From positions 3,108,501 through 3,172,500 of the forward strand of contig NZ_RCCC01000001.1 of NCBI RefSeq assembly GCF_003663825.1: 64,000 nt of DNA, in the 5' to 3' direction. Below the pieces are notes generated by a model. That model did not search any database. It saw nothing but the letters and a program-made list of their open reading frames with translations, and was not told where the DNA came from. Positions 3,358-62,746 of the stretch are shown in pieces. Within the stretch, counting starts at the first letter, position 1. Every line of letters starts with the position of its first letter. Made by a program: the position numbers and the translations under genes. Source of the stretch: Acidovorax sp. 106 (GTDB taxonomy: Bacteria; Pseudomonadota; Gammaproteobacteria; Burkholderiales; Burkholderiaceae_C).

Positions 3358-3393
3358 CGCAGTCTTCGGTCAGACGCCGTAGAGGTAATTGGG

Positions 3394-3443
3394 TTTGCTA
3401 TTATTTTTATAGCTTGTGGCGCTTGTCTGATAAGCGCTAGGGC
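3394..3443 (+). repeat. Tandem-hairpin intergenic repeat, copy A
   Basis: An AT-rich unit starting TTTGCTATT, with GCTATT/TATAGC-type arms, followed by GGCGCTT...AAGCGCTAG. It lies in the clsB-folE gap and points in the same direction as both genes. It matches the copies near 7961, 43604, 48287 and 51634 on this strand. Confidence 0.85.
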
Positions 3444-3493
3444 GTTAAAACCCTTGATGGTGCGGGGCGTGGGATCGCTGGTAGGATGTGTCC

Positions 3494-4852: not shown

Positions 4853-5734
4853 GTGACCCTCAACGCCTTCGCCCTCATCATCCTGGCAGGGCTCATCCAT
4901 GCCTGCTGGAACATTGCCGCCAAGAAAGCGGGGGGCGATTCGCGGTTTGCGTTCTTCACCTCGGTGCTGATGATGCTGTTCTGGGCGCCGCTGGGCTGGT
5001 GGCTGGGGCGTGATGCTGTGCCGCTGTGGGGTGTGGTGGAGTGGGGCTTTGTGGTGGTCAGTGGCGTGCTGCATGTGCTGTATTACGTCATCTTGCTGCG
5101 CGGCTACCGCGTGGCCGATCTCACGGTGGTGTACCCACTGGCGCGGGGCTCGGGGCCGCTCTTGTCTTCGCTGGTGGCCATCACGCTGCTGGGCGAGCAG
5201 ATCTCGGCCCTGGGGGCTTTGGGCATTGCCGGTGTGGTGGGCGGGGTGTTTTTGATTGCCGGTGGCCCCGGCCTGCTGCGCGCGGCGCACGACCCCGCTG
5301 CGCGTGAGCGCGTGCATACGGGGCTGCGCTATGGCCTGCTCACCGGGGCCTTTATCGCCAGCTACACGGTGGTGGACGGCTACGCGGTCAAGGTGCTGCT
5401 GATGTCGCCCATCCTCATCGACTACATGGGCAACTTTGTGCGCGTGGGCCTGCTGGCCCCCGTGGTGCTGCGCGATTTGCCCACGGCCCGCACGCTGTGG
5501 CTTGCGCAATGGCGCTTTGCCCTGCTGGTGGCCGTGGTGAGCCCTGTGGCCTACGTGCTGGTGCTGTATGCCATGCAGCAGGCACCCCTGTCGCACGTGG
5601 CCCCGGCGCGCGAGGTGTCCATGCTGTTTGCTGCGCTCATTGGCGGGCATTTGCTGGGCGAGGGCGACCGGCTGGCGAGGGTGTGCGGGGCCGTGTGCAT
5701 TGCGGCCGGCGTCACGGCGCTGGCTTTAGGATGA
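4853..5734 (+). CDS. EamA/DMT-family transporter
   Basis: The 293-residue protein consists of about ten hydrophobic segments in two EamA halves (HACWNIAAKKAG near the N-terminus; LRYGLLTGAFIASYTVVDGY opening the second half). This drug/metabolite transporter family usually exports amino acids or metabolites; the substrate cannot be told. The start is GTG at 4853 directly after the terminator, with no good ribosome binding site visible. The stop lies next to a G/C-rich dispersed repeat. Confidence 0.85.
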   Translation: MTLNAFALIILAGLIHACWNIAAKKAGGDSRFAFFTSVLMMLFWAPLGWWLGRDAVPLWGVVEWGFVVVSGVLHVLYYVILLRGYRVADLTVVYPLARGSGPLLSSLVAITLLGEQISALGALGIAGVVGGVFLIAGGPGLLRAAHDPAARERVHTGLRYGLLTGAFIASYTVVDGYAVKVLLMSPILIDYMGNFVRVGLLAPVVLRDLPTARTLWLAQWRFALLVAVVSPVAYVLVLYAMQQAPLSHVAPAREVSMLFAALIGGHLLGEGDRLARVCGAVCIAAGVTALALG

Positions 5735-5741
5735 CAAGATG

Positions 5742-5818
5742 CACCCCCTGAGGCGCTGCGCGCCTTCCCCCTCTCTCGCCTCGCTGCGCGAGTTGGGTGG
5801 GGGACGCCCCCAGCGGGG
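5742..5818 (+). repeat. G/C-rich dispersed intergenic repeat, copy 1
   Basis: Begins ACCCCCTGAG a few bases after the EamA stop and continues through CGCGCCTTCCCCCTCTCTC and GGGTGGGGGACGC. The same sequence with a few changes recurs in inverted orientation at 18352-18424, there too immediately after a stop codon. The middle part can fold (CGCTGCGCG). Confidence 0.8.
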
Positions 5819-7840: not shown

Positions 7841-7958
7841 GCAGCCTGATTCCATTTCCAAATCATTCCTGACTAGGCGCGAAGCCGCAGACAATGCTGA
7901 AGCACGGCAAGGCGAAGCAACAACGTCAGGGGTGATTTAGAAATGGAATGAGACCGCA
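7841..7958. repeat. Long inverted-repeat element downstream of the LysE gene
   Basis: Two 25-bp arms (7849-7873 and 7925-7949) are complementary at about 22 positions; the left arm starts ATTCCATTTCC and the right arm ends GGAAATGGAAT read in complement. The ~50-bp core contains repeated GCGAAGC motifs. There is no reading frame. It abuts copy B of the tandem-hairpin repeat, so this gap is made almost entirely of repeat elements. Confidence 0.75.
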
Positions 7959-7960
7959 GG

Positions 7961-8020
7961 TTTGCTATCAATTGAATAGCTGCTTGCGCTGATTGATAAA
8001 GCGCTAGGCCCTGTTTTTGC
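7961..8020 (+). repeat. Tandem-hairpin intergenic repeat, copy B
   Basis: TTTGCTATCAATTGAATAGC gives the first hairpin and TGCGCTTGATTGATAAAGCGCTA-like sequence the second, followed by GGCC and a T-rich tail. It lies between the LysE and phosphatase genes and points in their direction. Confidence 0.85.
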
Positions 8021-8055
8021 TTGTCATTTGGGGCCGTATCTTCAAAAATGACCCC

Positions 8056-14564: not shown

Positions 14565-14590
14565 GGCGGGGGGTGGGGTTCTATCAATGA

Positions 14591-14642
14591 AAATGGCTGC
14601 TAGCGCCTATGAATAAAGCGCTGGAAGCTATCATTTAAGGAG
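14591..14642 (-). repeat. Tandem-hairpin intergenic repeat, copy C
   Basis: Read on the minus strand: AAATGATAGCTTCCAGCGCT, then a TTATTCATA-type loop and GGCGCTAGCAGCCATTTT. It begins about 30 bp after the stop of the binding-protein gene and precedes the amidase; its direction matches the operon. Confidence 0.75.
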
Positions 14643-14672
14643 TAATCCGCTGCCGCAGAGGCAGCATGGGCA

Positions 14673-18218: not shown

Positions 18219-18351
18219 GGCTGCGGGTTTTCATCGGTTGCGGTGCTTTCATGTCAGTAACCCCGATACATGAAACTGGCGCGGCCCAAGACAGGGCAAC
18301 CGCGCAAGGGCCGCCAACCCGCGCAGGCGGCGTATGGCTTGTGTGCGCTGG

Positions 18352-18424
18352 CTGCGTCCCCCACCCGTAGCGCGCAGCGCGTAGAGAGAGGGGGAAGGCG
18401 CGAAGCGACTCAGGGGGTGTCATC
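18352..18424 (-). repeat. G/C-rich dispersed intergenic repeat, copy 2
   Basis: On the minus strand: ACACCCCCTGAGTCGCTTCG, CGCCTTCCCCCTCTCTC, a CGCGCTGCGCGC palindrome and GGGTGGGGGACGC. It is the counterpart of 5742-5818 and starts at the stop codon of the DppC-like permease gene, inside the ABC operon. Confidence 0.8.
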
Positions 18425-19339: not shown

Positions 19340-19499
19340 AGAGGCTGAGAGTTTTTTGCCAGTGCCCGAAAGGTGCGTCAAAACGCCGCTGATCGAGGCG
19401 CAAAGCACAGCCATAGCGCGGGCTATGGCGCGCATTTGCAACGACGAGCAGCGGTGTTTTGACGTGCAAGGCGGGCATAGGCAAAAGACTCTCAGCCTC

Positions 19500-19501
<2 letters not shown>
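19340..19501. repeat. 162-bp self-complementary hairpin element inside an operon
   Basis: Outer arms AGAGGCTGAGAGTTTTTTGC and its near-exact complement end at the stop codon of the DppB-like gene. Further pairing runs inwards: TGCCCG/CGGGCA, GTGCGTCAAAACGCCGCTG with CAGCGGTGTTTTGACGTGC, and the central AGCCATAGC/GCTATGGC. Nearly the whole element can form one long stem with small bulges. It fills the DppB-DppC junction and has no reading frame. Confidence 0.88.
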
Positions 19502-20948
<1,447 letters not shown>

Positions 20949-21065
20949 GGCGGTGGGGTCTGCATGGCCCCGCAATGCTTGGGGCGATAGTGCGCTTGGG
21001 CTCGTCATCCCAGCGGGGCGGCTGGGGATATGCCACCGTTTGTTGGAGAATTTATGACCCAATTT

Positions 21066-21117
21066 GGCCTCTAGCGCTTATCAATCAAGCGCTAGCAGCT
21101 ATATAAAACATAGCAGT
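21066..21117 (-). repeat. Tandem-hairpin intergenic repeat, copy D
   Basis: On the minus strand: ACTGCTATGTTTTATATAGC, then TGC and TAGCGCTTGATTGATAAGCG with CTA completing a perfect 8-bp stem, then GAGGCC. It begins 12 bp after the pth stop, in pth direction, in the gap towards the ferredoxin gene. Confidence 0.9.
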
Positions 21118-21128
21118 TTTTTGAAGAG

Positions 21129-39076: not shown

Positions 39077-39697
39077 TCAGGTGATATTGAGCGACTTGAA
39101 GGTGTCAGCACGGGCGCGGCGCTGTGCGGCGTACTTGAGTCGCTGGGCGTGAACTACGGCTTTCAGGTCGAAAAGCGCGCGCTCAAACAACTCGTTGATT
39201 ATAACGAAGTCGAATTTGTTGACCTGTTCCATCTCGGTGGCTGCATTTTTCAGTCGCAACTCGATGGTTTCTGGCGAGTCTTCGCCGCGTCGTTCCAGGC
39301 GGGAGCGCAATTCTTCCCAGCTCGGGGGCAGGATGAACACCAGTACCGCATTGGCAAAGGCCTGTTTGACTTGGAGTGCGCCTTGAAAGTCGATTTCCAG
39401 GATCACGTCAGCTCCTTGGGCAATCCGATCTTCGATGGCTTTTTTGGACGTGCCGTAGCGGTTACCGTGCACATGCGCCCACTCTACGAAAGCGTTGCCC
39501 TGCACCATGGCGTCAAATTCGGACTGAGATGCAAAGTAGTAGTTGCGACCATGCTTTTCCTGTCCGCGGGGCGCGCGGGTGGTATGAGAGATCGATAGGT
39601 GAACGTGGGAGTCTAGCTCCAGAAGGGCTTTGACAAGGCTGGATTTGCCCGCCCCGCTGGGGGCTGCAACAACGAATAAATTTCCGGGATAGTCCAT
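39077..39697 (-). CDS. gmk: Guanylate kinase
   Basis: Converts GMP to GDP. The 206-residue protein has the P-loop [36 protein letters not shown] and [13 protein letters not shown]. It starts directly behind a degenerate copy of the tandem-hairpin repeat. The gene follows yicC. Confidence 0.97.
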
Positions 39698-39732
39698 AGC
39701 TGGTAAGCGCTAAGCGCTATCAAAAAATGAGT
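39698..39732 (-). repeat. Tandem-hairpin intergenic repeat, copy I (partial)
   Basis: On the minus strand TTTTTTGATAGCGCTTAGCG and CTTACCAGCTATGG contain the TAGCGCTT arms of the family but lack the full second arm. It begins 3-4 bp after the yicC stop and touches the gmk start, in the direction of both genes. Confidence 0.55.
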
Positions 39733-39733
39733 G

Positions 39734-40651
39734 TTACTCGATATTTTGCACTTGTTCGCGCATCTGCTCGATCAGCACCTTCATGTCCACGCTGATGCGG
39801 GTCAGGTCCAGTGCTGCAGATTTGGAGCCCATGGTGTTGGCTTCGCGGTGCAATTCCTGGATGAGAAAGTCCAGGCGCTTGCCGACTTCTCCGCCCTTTT
39901 TCAAGAGGCGCTCGATCTCGTCCAGGTGCGATTCCAGTCGCGTGATTTCTTCTGCCACATCAATGCGGATGGCAAAGGCGGTGGCTTCGGTCAACGCACG
40001 GTCGCGGGCTGCTTCGGGCAGGGTGGAGCCGTCGGTCAAAGCCATGGCTTCTTTCCAGCGCTCCATGAAGCGCTGGCGTTGCTGCTCCACCAGTTGGGGC
40101 ACCAGCGGCACGGCTTGCTGGGCCAGCGCGCGCAGCTGTTTGGCGCGGTCCAGCACCATGGCGGCCAGGCGCTTGCCTTCGCGCTCGCGGGCAGACAACA
40201 GGGCGGTGAGGGCTTCTTCGGCCAGCGCTGGCACGGCTTCGCTCCAGTCTTCCGATCCGGTGTTGGCGTTGGCGCACAGGCGCAGGGCATCTGCCACGCT
40301 CAGCGGCGCGGCGCCTGGCAGCCAGGCCTTGACGGAATCTTGCAAGGTGTTGAGGCGCTGCAGCAGGCGCGCTGGCGGGTCTTGCAGGGTGTTGCTGTCT
40401 TCGTTTTCGATGGCCGCGCGCACTTCGACCTTGCCGCGCTTGAGGCGGGCTGTGAGCAGGCTGCGCAGTGTGGGCTCCAGCGCGCGCAGGTCGTCGGGCA
40501 GGCGAAAGGACAGGTCCAGAAAGCGGCTGTTGACCGAACGGATCTCCAGGCCCAGCCTGCGATTTTGGGGGGCGCGGCCCTCGGTTTCAGCGCCAGCGGC
40601 AGACGCGCCTTGCTGTGCACTGGCGTATCCGGTCATGCTGTAAACTGGCAT
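39734..40651 (-). CDS. yicC: YicC-family endoribonuclease-like protein
   Basis: The 305-residue protein has the N-terminal MTGYASAQ motif, LEIRSVNSRFLDLSFRLPD, and a C-terminal HREANTMGSKSA segment, all typical of YicC (DUF1732). E. coli YicC is a ribonuclease acting on certain RNAs. It precedes gmk on the same strand and is divergent from the kinase gene with ~75 bp between. Confidence 0.93.
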   Translation of the reverse strand: MPVYSMTGYASAQQGASAAGAETEGRAPQNRRLGLEIRSVNSRFLDLSFRLPDDLRALEPTLRSLLTARLKRGKVEVRAAIENEDSNTLQDPPARLLQRLNTLQDSVKAWLPGAAPLSVADALRLCANANTGSEDWSEAVPALAEEALTALLSAREREGKRLAAMVLDRAKQLRALAQQAVPLVPQLVEQQRQRFMERWKEAMALTDGSTLPEAARDRALTEATAFAIRIDVAEEITRLESHLDEIERLLKKGGEVGKRLDFLIQELHREANTMGSKSAALDLTRISVDMKVLIEQMREQVQNIE

Positions 40652-42870: not shown

Positions 42871-43599
<729 letters not shown>

Positions 43600-43603
43600 T
43601 TTA

Positions 43604-43660
43604 TTTGCTATTTATTTGATAGCTTCTAGCGCTTGGTAAATAAGCGCTAAGGCCTGATTT
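43604..43660 (+). repeat. Tandem-hairpin intergenic repeat, copy E
   Basis: TTTGCTATTTATTTGATAGC then TTC and TAGCGCTTGGTAAATAAGCG with CTA closing a perfect 8-bp arm, then AGGCC and a T-rich tail. It starts 4 bp after the rph stop and ends at the rdgB start region, in gene direction. Confidence 0.92.
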
Positions 43661-43664
43661 GACT

Positions 43665-44264
43665 ATGAAACTCGTATTGGCATCCAACAACCAGGGCAAG
43701 CTCGCCGAGCTGCAGGCCATGTTCGCCCCGCTGGGCGTGGAACTGGTGCGCCAGGGCGACCTGGGTGTGGGCGAGGCCGAAGAACCCTTTCGCACCTTTG
43801 TCGAGAACGCGCTGACCAAGGCGCGCTTCGCCTCGCAGCACACAGGCCTGCCCGCGCTGGCCGACGATGCAGGCATGTGTGTGGACGCCTTTGGCGGCCT
43901 GCCGGGCGTCGATACGGCCTACTACTGCACCCAGTTCGGCTACGAAAAAAGCGATGCCAACAACGTGCGCGCATTGCTGGAGCAACTGCAGGGCGTGGCC
44001 AACCGCCGCGCCGCCATGGTCAGCACCCTGGTGGCCGTACGCAGCCCGCAAGACCCCGAGCCGCTGATTGCCGTGGGCCGCGTGGTGGGCGAGATCACCA
44101 CCGAACCGCGTGGCAGCAATGGCTTTGGGTTCGACCCGATCATGTTCATCCCTGAATTTGGCAAGACCTTTGCTGAGCTGCCCGTGGAGGTGAAGAACGC
44201 TAACAGCCACCGTGGCCGCTCCGCCGTGCAGATGCTGAGCTTGATGCGTGAGCGCTGGTTTTGA
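43665..44264 (+). CDS. rdgB: Non-canonical purine NTP pyrophosphatase RdgB/HAM1
   Basis: Hydrolyses ITP, dITP and XTP to keep them out of DNA and RNA. The 199-residue protein has LASNNQGKLAELQ at the start, the TFVENALTKARFAS motif, ALADDAGMCVDAFGG and the substrate loop GSNGFGFDPIMF. A TTG two codons upstream is possible, but ATG at 43665 fits. The start lies directly after the repeat copy E. Confidence 0.97.
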   Translation: MKLVLASNNQGKLAELQAMFAPLGVELVRQGDLGVGEAEEPFRTFVENALTKARFASQHTGLPALADDAGMCVDAFGGLPGVDTAYYCTQFGYEKSDANNVRALLEQLQGVANRRAAMVSTLVAVRSPQDPEPLIAVGRVVGEITTEPRGSNGFGFDPIMFIPEFGKTFAELPVEVKNANSHRGRSAVQMLSLMRERWF

Positions 44265-48199: not shown

Positions 48200-48251
48200 G
48201 CCGGTCGGCCGTCCGCCTGATGGGCGGGCGGCTGCTGAGGTATCGGATGGG

Positions 48252-48289
48252 AGCCACCCCGTAGGCATCTATGGGGTGGCTTTGCTTTT
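48252..48289 (+). terminator. Terminator after the CpdB-like gene
   Basis: AGCCACCCC/GGGGTGGCT (9 bp, 12-nt loop) is followed by TTGCTTTT. It lies 53 bp after the stop and runs into repeat copy F. Confidence 0.75.
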
Positions 48290-48345
48290 GCTATTAAATA
48301 TATAGCTGCTAGCGCTTGTGGTTAAAGCGCTATAGCCTGTTTCAA
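48287..48345 (+). repeat. Tandem-hairpin intergenic repeat, copy F
   Basis: TTTGCTATTAAATATATAGC, TGC, then TAGCGCTTGTGGTTAAAGCG with CTA, followed by TAGCCTG and a T/A-rich tail. It lies after the CpdB-like gene in its direction; the next gene (Smr) is convergent. Confidence 0.92.
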
Positions 48346-48360
48346 TAAAAATTCAGGGCC

Positions 48361-51629: not shown

Positions 51630-51633
51630 GGTG

Positions 51634-51692
51634 TTTGCTATTTATTTAATAGCTGCTAGCGCTTTCTGGTAGGGCGCTAGAGTCATTTTTGA
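51634..51692 (+). repeat. Tandem-hairpin intergenic repeat, copy G
   Basis: TTTGCTATTTATTTAATAGC gives a perfect GCTATT/AATAGC stem; then TGC and TAGCGCTTTCTGGTAGGGCG with CTA, then AGAGTC and ATTTTTGAC. It starts 4 bp after the ispH stop, in ispH direction, and fills the gap to the convergent CBS gene. Confidence 0.93.
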
Positions 51693-51693
51693 C

Positions 51694-52392
51694 TTAGGAG
51701 TGGTCAGGCGCAGGCCCGCTCCACAAATCCAGCGGCGGGTCTGCCGCCACGGCGCGCAGGATGTCGGTGCGCGAGATGAACCCGGCCAGCACGCCCGCCT
51801 CGTCGGTCACAGGCAAACCCGGCAGGCCGGTAGACAGCAACACACCCGCCACCCGGCGCAAGGCGGTGTCTGCCGCTACGGCAGGCACGGGGGTGAGCAT
51901 GACTTCGGAGACCGGGCGGCGCGCCAGCTCAATCGCCTCCTTCACGGCCCCCGGCTCGGGCAGCAAGTCCAGCGGCGCCATGTCGGCCCGCAACAGCAGG
52001 CCCACCACGCGGCCCAGCTCGTCGACCACGGGGGCCTGCGCCACGCGGTGTTCGGCCAGCGTTTGCCAGGCGTCGTTCACGCGCATGGACGGCGCCACGC
52101 TCAACGCCCCGTGGCTCATCACATCGCTCACCAGCGTCAGCGGCTCGCGCCGCCGCTGGGGCCCCTGCCCGGTCTGGATGTAAGCGGCCACGGCGTCGTG
52201 CAGCCGCAGGTTCACCACGGGCGCGTGTTCGCGCGCCAAGGGGGCTGGCGCAGGGGCTGCGTTGGCCTCGGCGTCCATACTGCGAGTACGCAGCGCCTGC
52301 GGTCGGCCCACGGGCCGCACCGCTGCGATCTGGCTCAGGTTTTCAGGGCCGCCCCGGTAGATCTGGCCCGAAGGGCCGAACACAAAAAACAT
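51694..52392 (-). CDS. CBS-domain protein
   Basis: The 232-residue protein has a short N-terminal FGPSGQIYRGG region, an Ala/Pro linker and two CBS motifs in the C-terminal two thirds (VSDVMSHGALSVAPSMRVND, VSEVMLTPVPAVAADTALRR, GFISRTDILRAV). CBS pairs bind adenylates and act as sensors. The ATG at 52392 has a strong AGGAGG ribosome binding site; a frame extending to 52434 is not needed. No catalytic domain is attached; the partner is unknown. Confidence 0.87.
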   Translation of the reverse strand: MFFVFGPSGQIYRGGPENLSQIAAVRPVGRPQALRTRSMDAEANAAPAPAPLAREHAPVVNLRLHDAVAAYIQTGQGPQRRREPLTLVSDVMSHGALSVAPSMRVNDAWQTLAEHRVAQAPVVDELGRVVGLLLRADMAPLDLLPEPGAVKEAIELARRPVSEVMLTPVPAVAADTALRRVAGVLLSTGLPGLPVTDEAGVLAGFISRTDILRAVAADPPLDLWSGPAPDHS

Positions 52393-62557: not shown

Positions 62558-62570
62558 GGTGGTTTTGAAT

Positions 62571-62626
62571 GAAAAATGCCGCTAGCACTTATAAATAAAG
62601 CGCAGGCAGCTATCAAATCAGGAGTA
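62571..62626 (-). repeat. Tandem-hairpin intergenic repeat, copy H
   Basis: On the minus strand: TTTGATAGCTGCCTGCGCTT, a TATTTAT loop and AAGTGCTAGCGGCATTTTT. It lies between the PrpF-like and lyase genes and points in their direction, about 120 bp after the PrpF-like stop. Confidence 0.8.
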
Positions 62627-62746
62627 AGTGCTGCGGGGCTTTGGGCACCGCTCACACCTCCCGGCGAAGTGGCCCTGGCCAGGCGTTGCGTCGCAGGCAT
62701 TAGGGGTACGACCAGACGAGACAACGACGCCAAGGGGGGCGCTGCT

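Follow-up and report, generated by a model that had tools for sequence, protein, structure and literature searches.

What is the short two-hairpin repeat that follows a stop codon at position 51,634: an element that works in the RNA of the gene upstream, or a unit of dispersed DNA that has come to lie at gene ends? The original prediction counted nine copies in the window (the whole stretch of 64,000 nt analysed here), all of them intergenic and oriented like the gene that ends just upstream, and took this to suggest a role in RNA. A covariance model built from the six full copies (the first model), together with search patterns for the repeat, gives the following assessment of these places.

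3393..3462, + strand: full two-hairpin unit (model match 3390-3455, E 2.5e-19, training copy; limits from the conservation profile)
7960..8029, + strand: full two-hairpin unit (model match 7957-8022, E 4.5e-20, training copy)
14580..14647, - strand: variant 5' part (ACTCCT...TGATAGC), main hairpin present (model E 0.0027; pattern match with 1 mismatch)
21049..21118, - strand: full two-hairpin unit (model match 21056-21121, E 1.7e-18, training copy)
39690..39735, - strand: doubtful; conserved gene junction with ACTCATTTTTTGATAGC, without the main hairpin (no model match at E up to 10)
43603..43672, + strand: full two-hairpin unit in a codirectional gap (model match 43600-43665, E 2.9e-22, training copy)
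48286..48355, + strand: full two-hairpin unit in a convergent gap (model match 48283-48348, E 5.2e-20, training copy)
51633..51702, + strand: full two-hairpin unit in a convergent gap (model match 51630-51695, E 1e-21, training copy)
62562..62629, - strand: variant 5' part, main hairpin present (model E 0.00049; second model E 2.9e-6)

Six of the nine proposed two-hairpin copies (3394, 7961, 21066, 43604, 48287 and 51634) carry the full unit. At 14591 and 62571 the second hairpin and the tail are present, but the TTTGCTATT...AATAGC part is replaced by ACTCCT...TGATAGC and the model matches are weak. The place near 39698 is doubtful as a copy, given that it lacks both a model match and the core pattern, the latter being absent from this gap in the window and in the 22 relatives that have the gap. 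Many relatives keep ACTCATTTTTTGATAGC without the main hairpin at this junction, which precedes the gene ending at 39697; the start of that gene resembles guanylate kinase. By the gene calls made here, all nine places are intergenic, all nine lie in the orientation of the gene ending upstream, and the spacing of about 4 bp claimed between stop codon and repeat at 43604, 51634 and 39698 is correct. Since the copies at 48287 and 51634 occupy convergent gaps, where either orientation would agree, seven of the nine are informative. The copy at 43603..43672 lies between two codirectional genes, presumably rph-like and then rdgB-like, and its tail reaches the start of the second. The window also holds two other inverted repeats, one at 5742-5815 and 18346-18419 (arms of 74 nt, 85%, across 12.5 kb) and one at 19340-19395 and 19445-19500 (arms of 56 nt, 80%, 49 nt between them).

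The repeat family exists beyond chance, and it is far commoner in the 4.88-Mb source chromosome (one contig) than the window shows. The core pattern has 204 matches in the genome and its reversed control none, while a pattern for the variant 5' part, allowing up to 2 mismatches, has 145 against 1 in the control. At least 150 places match the first model at E <= 4.5e-5 (150 of 1995 candidates were scored, and all 150 match); with the first and the second model alike, at most 150 candidates were scored per genome. Joining the lists gives about 270 places among the matches listed, a rough count given that 5 of 30 variant-pattern matches inspected fall inside predicted genes. Among the 150 model matches listed, the smallest spacing is 929 bp and the median 22 kb, and there are neither tandem copies nor pairs in opposite orientation.

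When 110 copies are aligned on the model, their conservation profile delimits a unit of about 70 nt with sharp edges, background on both sides and no terminal inverted repeats. The limits of 52 further copies, obtained only with a second, core-only model (its alignment, A2, omits the 7 atypical ones among 55 sequences), are identical. The 5' hairpin (GCTAT...ATAGC) is weak; the spacer TGC separates it from a stronger one (CTAGCGCTT...AAGCGCTAG), after which comes a tail rich in A and T. The main palindrome alone spans about 25 nt, and the full unit is made of two palindromes. The majority consensus of the 162 copies, flanking letters included, reads ggATTTGCTATTaAATTaATAGCTGCTAGCGCTTaTTtAaTAAGCGCTAGAGGCcaTTTTtATTtAAAatt, and the mean GC content of the unit is 0.39. 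Stem conservation is overstated in these alignments, because the copies were found with models that reward the consensus. No two of the copies compared are nearly identical: identity between pairs peaks at 88%, the median being 66%, and these copies therefore show no sign of recent copying.

To place these copies relative to genes, about 3 kb of sequence around each of the 162 was run through a simple gene caller based on a codon model (110 examined of the 150 model matches and 52 from the second model). Convergent gaps contain 46 of them, divergent gaps 7, and codirectional gaps 49 in the orientation of the genes and 49 in the opposite one; 7 lie inside predicted genes and 4 could not be placed. 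The claim that the copies are intergenic holds for most of them genome-wide, but not for those seven. Placement is clearly non-random: 144 of 162 copies fall in codirectional or convergent gaps, and against 46 copies in convergent and 7 in divergent gaps, the remaining gaps of 40-1000 bp in these stretches number 21 convergent and 39 divergent (p 1.4e-8). Within codirectional gaps, 60 of 98 copies are nearer to the stop than to the start codon.

The orientation lock, in contrast, fails genome-wide. The 49:49 count of orientations in codirectional gaps is the very result that the original prediction had named as speaking against itself. The nine-of-nine agreement in the window is a small-sample result; the repeat prefers gene 3' ends, and is not oriented by them. 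This count already refutes the orientation-locked form of an explanation in which the repeat serves the sense strand of the upstream gene as a terminator, a processing or stability signal or the target of a protein. Apart from the agreement in the window, that explanation can draw on the location of the copies close to stop codons and in convergent gaps, and on a difference in spacing: copies in the same orientation as their codirectional genes lie nearer to the stop (median 23 bp, versus 71 bp to the start), those in the opposite orientation less so (39 versus 37 bp). It can also draw on folding, as 6 of the 9 window copies fold better than shuffled sequences (z -2.35 to -3.71), with three not clearly better (z -1.18, -1.15 and, for the copy at 7960..8029, -0.42).

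The tail argues against termination in particular. A T-rich tail exists, as had been claimed, but it begins only about 6 nt after the stem. In neither direction do the eight bases next to the stem contain five T in any of the 162 copies; in the sense direction, a stretch rich in T is present at 6-13 nt from the stem in 92 of them. A more lenient terminator scan, which lets the stretch start up to 2 bases later, accepts one window copy (51656-51680). Several copies occupy short codirectional gaps, 11-50 bp from the next gene, where a strong terminator would be costly. Moreover, a 15-pair terminator-like hairpin at 48250-48283 ends just before the repeat at 48287, so that the gene upstream already has a terminator candidate of its own. 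The repeat is not an ordinary intrinsic terminator, and with covariation in the 110 aligned copies going no further than column composition, we consider an orientation-locked RNA element very unlikely.

Failure of the lock removes the orientation-locked form alone, and an RNA role of another kind is possible. Given that the main stem is palindromic, a transcript from either side carries the same hairpin, and a repeat that supplies a 3' hairpin in either orientation might be preserved at some gene ends by selection. Persistence at orthologous positions bears on this idea. Of 80 loci from relatives, 45 were searched for copies and 30 entered the gap comparison. The RdgB-like protein encoded at 43665 is 96% identical to an Acidovorax temperans protein, the best of 80 named loci, and by its named relatives the window belongs to Acidovorax. 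The gap before this gene (43599-43665) could be mapped in 29 relatives, of which 16 match the core pattern there and others show remains of the repeat by eye; in several, the repeat includes the upstream gene's stop codon. A. temperans also has the copies at 48287 and 51634 (the latter in locus L166). Gains or losses can be seen as well, two relatives (L174 and L182) having a copy after 45539 where the window has none. No clean pair of an empty and a filled site could be aligned in the 15 gaps examined, 11 of which were mappable in at least one relative. In an Acidovorax metagenome-assembled genome (L173, about 5470-5635), the rph-rdgB gap measures 210 bp and contains, next to the repeat, a further long palindrome formed by CCCGTTCGGACTGAGCCTGTCGAAGC and its complement.

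Compensatory stem changes, which the original prediction had expected, turned out to be few. The 110 aligned copies have none beyond column composition: stem pairing is about that expected from the columns, and at one stem position 29 of 110 copies have T opposite T. A mixed set of 48 sequences has 4 double-change cells versus 1.2 in shuffles; its covariation score is equalled in 1 of 500 shuffles, but no more than 2 pairs show a double change (134 of 500 shuffles). Covariation of the main stem is weak. At gap 43599-43665, 27 orthologous sequences have 78.2% of cells paired versus 73.7% in shuffles (0 of 500), 10 double-change cells versus 4.6 (1 of 500) and a covariation score of 0.225 versus 0.160 (0 of 500), figures that come from this one gap and from shuffles that ignore relatedness. 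Against them, the count of double-changed pairs is unremarkable (92 of 500 shuffles), and partners slid by -1 or -3 columns give 15 or 11 double-change cells, albeit with lower scores. The alignment thus lends modest support to a hairpin kept at this gap, and its modest covariation fits a selected RNA hairpin better than inert DNA. As a general account of the repeat, an orientation-independent RNA element under selection seems unlikely to us.

If the repeat is not an RNA signal set by its gene, it could have spread as DNA, and the distribution of copies over the two replication strands at first sight favours such a process. With the origin placed near 1.71 Mb (dnaA position and GC skew), 106 of the 150 copies in the first list, and 79 of the best 100, are on the leading strand; five relatives give 29 of 42, 25 of 33, 16 of 24, 4 of 8 and 1 of 1 among the matches listed. 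However, five leading copies and a single lagging one made up the training set of the first model. The two classes of copy differ in 21 of 69 columns (p<0.05, uncorrected); in 20 of these 21 the leading strand favours T over C or G over A, and in one the opposite holds. The upstream flank carries the identical signature, leading copies again being richer in T and G. A leading-heavy training set combined with T- and G-rich leading copies makes the first model rank leading copies higher, and outside its list only 49 of 120 copies are leading.

Other counts leave little of the bias. The union of the lists has 155 of 270 copies on the leading strand (p 0.017), with 60 of 111 in the best-covered region and 46 of 79 and 48 of 73 in two others; core-pattern rows entered this count up to 1,587,133, minus three mirror-strand duplicates (100 of 204 listed, uneven by strand), and variant-pattern rows as 100 of 145 listed. 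The second model, which leans on leading copies too, yields 88 of 147 in the source genome (p 0.02) and 82 of 139 in a second genus (p 0.04). Strand-specific mutation of old residents explains most of the replication-strand signal, and a small true bias is possible. Replication-oriented spread by single-strand transposition was rejected as an explanation, the bias of 106 in 150 being largely an artefact of the leading-trained model. A division into two subtypes, TTTGCTATT versus ACTCC, was likewise rejected, since these are largely two replication-strand states of one unit. Two points follow for work on such elements: a replication-strand bias can be produced by a profile whose training copies all come from a single chromosomal stretch, and repeat copies record replication-strand mutation inside a repeat family.

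A mover could still be sought in the transposases of the genome. The source genome has one gene for a Y1 (HUH) tyrosine transposase (L067, 870003-870698), the sole match to that family there, and this single-copy enzyme might move the repeat in trans, as RAYT does REP. A relative of the gene (loci including L068-L079 and L278-L317) is present in all 72 family genomes tested, but this does not discriminate: 31 of them have the repeat and 41 do not (0-2 pattern matches), and an association by presence was accordingly rejected. In Acidovorax-type loci, the Y1 gene lies, as we take it, before a gltB-like gene. A suggestive observation is that the repeat stands antisense directly after the Y1 stop codon, on one side only, in 7 of 52 loci at E <= 0.2 (a search that left out L074, L080 and L081-L084), with two more loci at E 1.2 and 1.9; the rest of the 204 kb searched around Y1 loci has six places that reach E <= 0.2, and two of these immediately precede the gene. 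These seven copies sit at orthologous positions, however, and may descend from one old insertion. In the source genome itself no copy lies beside the Y1 gene, the nearest being about 3 kb away. Furthermore, the gene has GGGGACA-like ends of its own in many loci, resembling the GGGGWSAS terminal repeats that PMC3733652 describes for TIR-associated transposases. With the leading-strand bias that would have backed single-strand transposition being largely an artefact, movement by this enzyme strikes us as quite improbable.

The family is restricted in its distribution. At least one core-pattern match occurs in 65 of 250 genomes sampled from the family of the source organism, with strong variation within genera and a highest count of 347 in one genome. 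For 17 of the 141 genera in this sample, at least one genome has five or more matches. In other families of the order, 8 of 195 genomes have one match each. Since the core pattern needs near-exact stems, diverged variants could be missed and these taxonomic limits may be drawn too narrowly. Copies are found on three plasmid records from Comamonadaceae (Diaphorobacter, Polaromonas and Acidovorax). A phage origin was rejected, there being no match among phage records.

Taken together, we favour, with a probability of roughly 60%, an old, lineage-restricted family of dispersed, REP-like hairpin repeats that lack a tag, are ageing in place and are tolerated or kept at gene 3' ends. The discrete edges, the high copy number and the location in gaps near gene ends argue for this reading, as do an orientation unrelated to transcription, the absence of any near-identical pair among the copies compared and the strand-mutation signature. 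The units would once have spread as small mobile DNA by means of some enzyme, and they show no sign of recent spreading in the source genome; copies would have been lost from most coding and promoter positions and retained at 3' ends. If they have any effect, the likeliest may be that of a stem-loop behind the stop codon which delays degradation by exonucleases or reduces read-through to a modest degree.

The repeat is taken as undescribed within Rfam and the open-access literature, in keeping with the earlier remark that no named description was known. Within the window, only four tRNAs reach Rfam gathering scores, and two matches at the 51634 copy are at chance level. Open-access papers on these bacteria yielded no named description, BRE (the Beta-proteobacterial repeat element) being the sole relevant title; a string search of papers with four substrings returned, among the matches listed, none on these bacteria by title, and the genus names tried are absent from the main text of the REP surveys PMC3733652 and PMC2817692. 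BRE resembles the repeat in occurring in Comamonadaceae genomes, usually between genes and in an orientation not fixed by function, yet Hot et al. (2011; PMC3110155) describe it as about 90 bp long, frequently arranged in tandem and with a GC content of 69% in Bordetella, compared with about 70 nt, 39% GC and single copies for the repeat. Identity with BRE was rejected on these grounds of length, GC and arrangement. Intrinsic terminators share with the repeat a GC-containing stem near gene ends and a T-rich stretch downstream in one direction, but their T-run follows the stem directly, which no copy among the 162 reproduces in either direction. With IS200/IS605 elements and their derivatives (PMC5371812 and PMC6006769), the repeat has in common two hairpins of subterminal type, a lack of terminal inverted repeats and, in the first list, what looked like a replication polarity. 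In our case the polarity is largely a matter of ascertainment, and the sole Y1 gene has other ends.

REPs come closest. As described in PMC3733652, they are short palindromic units restricted to certain lineages and present in more than 100 copies per genome; most stand outside genes, where the neighbours are convergent or codirectional, and close to stop codons and 3' ends. The repeat, with at least 150 model matches, 204 pattern matches and 144 of 162 copies in such gaps, agrees on each of these counts. It departs from the same account in size, the REP palindromic unit being 20-40 nt and the present one about 70 nt with two hairpins. The GTAG and CGTC superfamilies of REPs carry an unpaired tag at the end of the palindrome, and the repeat has neither: of 162 copies, 14 have GTAG immediately 5' of the main stem and none has it on the other side, and for CGTC the counts at the two stem ends are 0 and 2. 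Many REP families are paired in opposite orientation, unlike the 150 matches listed here. GTAG REP units flank their RAYT gene; of the Y1 loci, 7 of 52 have a copy of the repeat beside the gene, on one side only, and the source genome has none there. The Y1 gene itself has other ends. Lacking the tags and being longer, the repeat is not filed as a GTAG or CGTC REP.

A bolder proposal, which we put forward tentatively and regard as doubtful, is that it represents an unnamed class of untagged two-hairpin repeats, old enough to occupy the same gap in several Comamonadaceae genera, placing an orientation-independent 3' hairpin at an estimated several percent of gene ends and being selected at some of them. 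Should the favoured reading be right, such repeats would offer a natural test of the effect of a hairpin that follows a gene and points either way. Likewise, a bacterial family unnamed in both REP surveys would have a REP-like class of its own without GTAG or CGTC, abundant in several genera.
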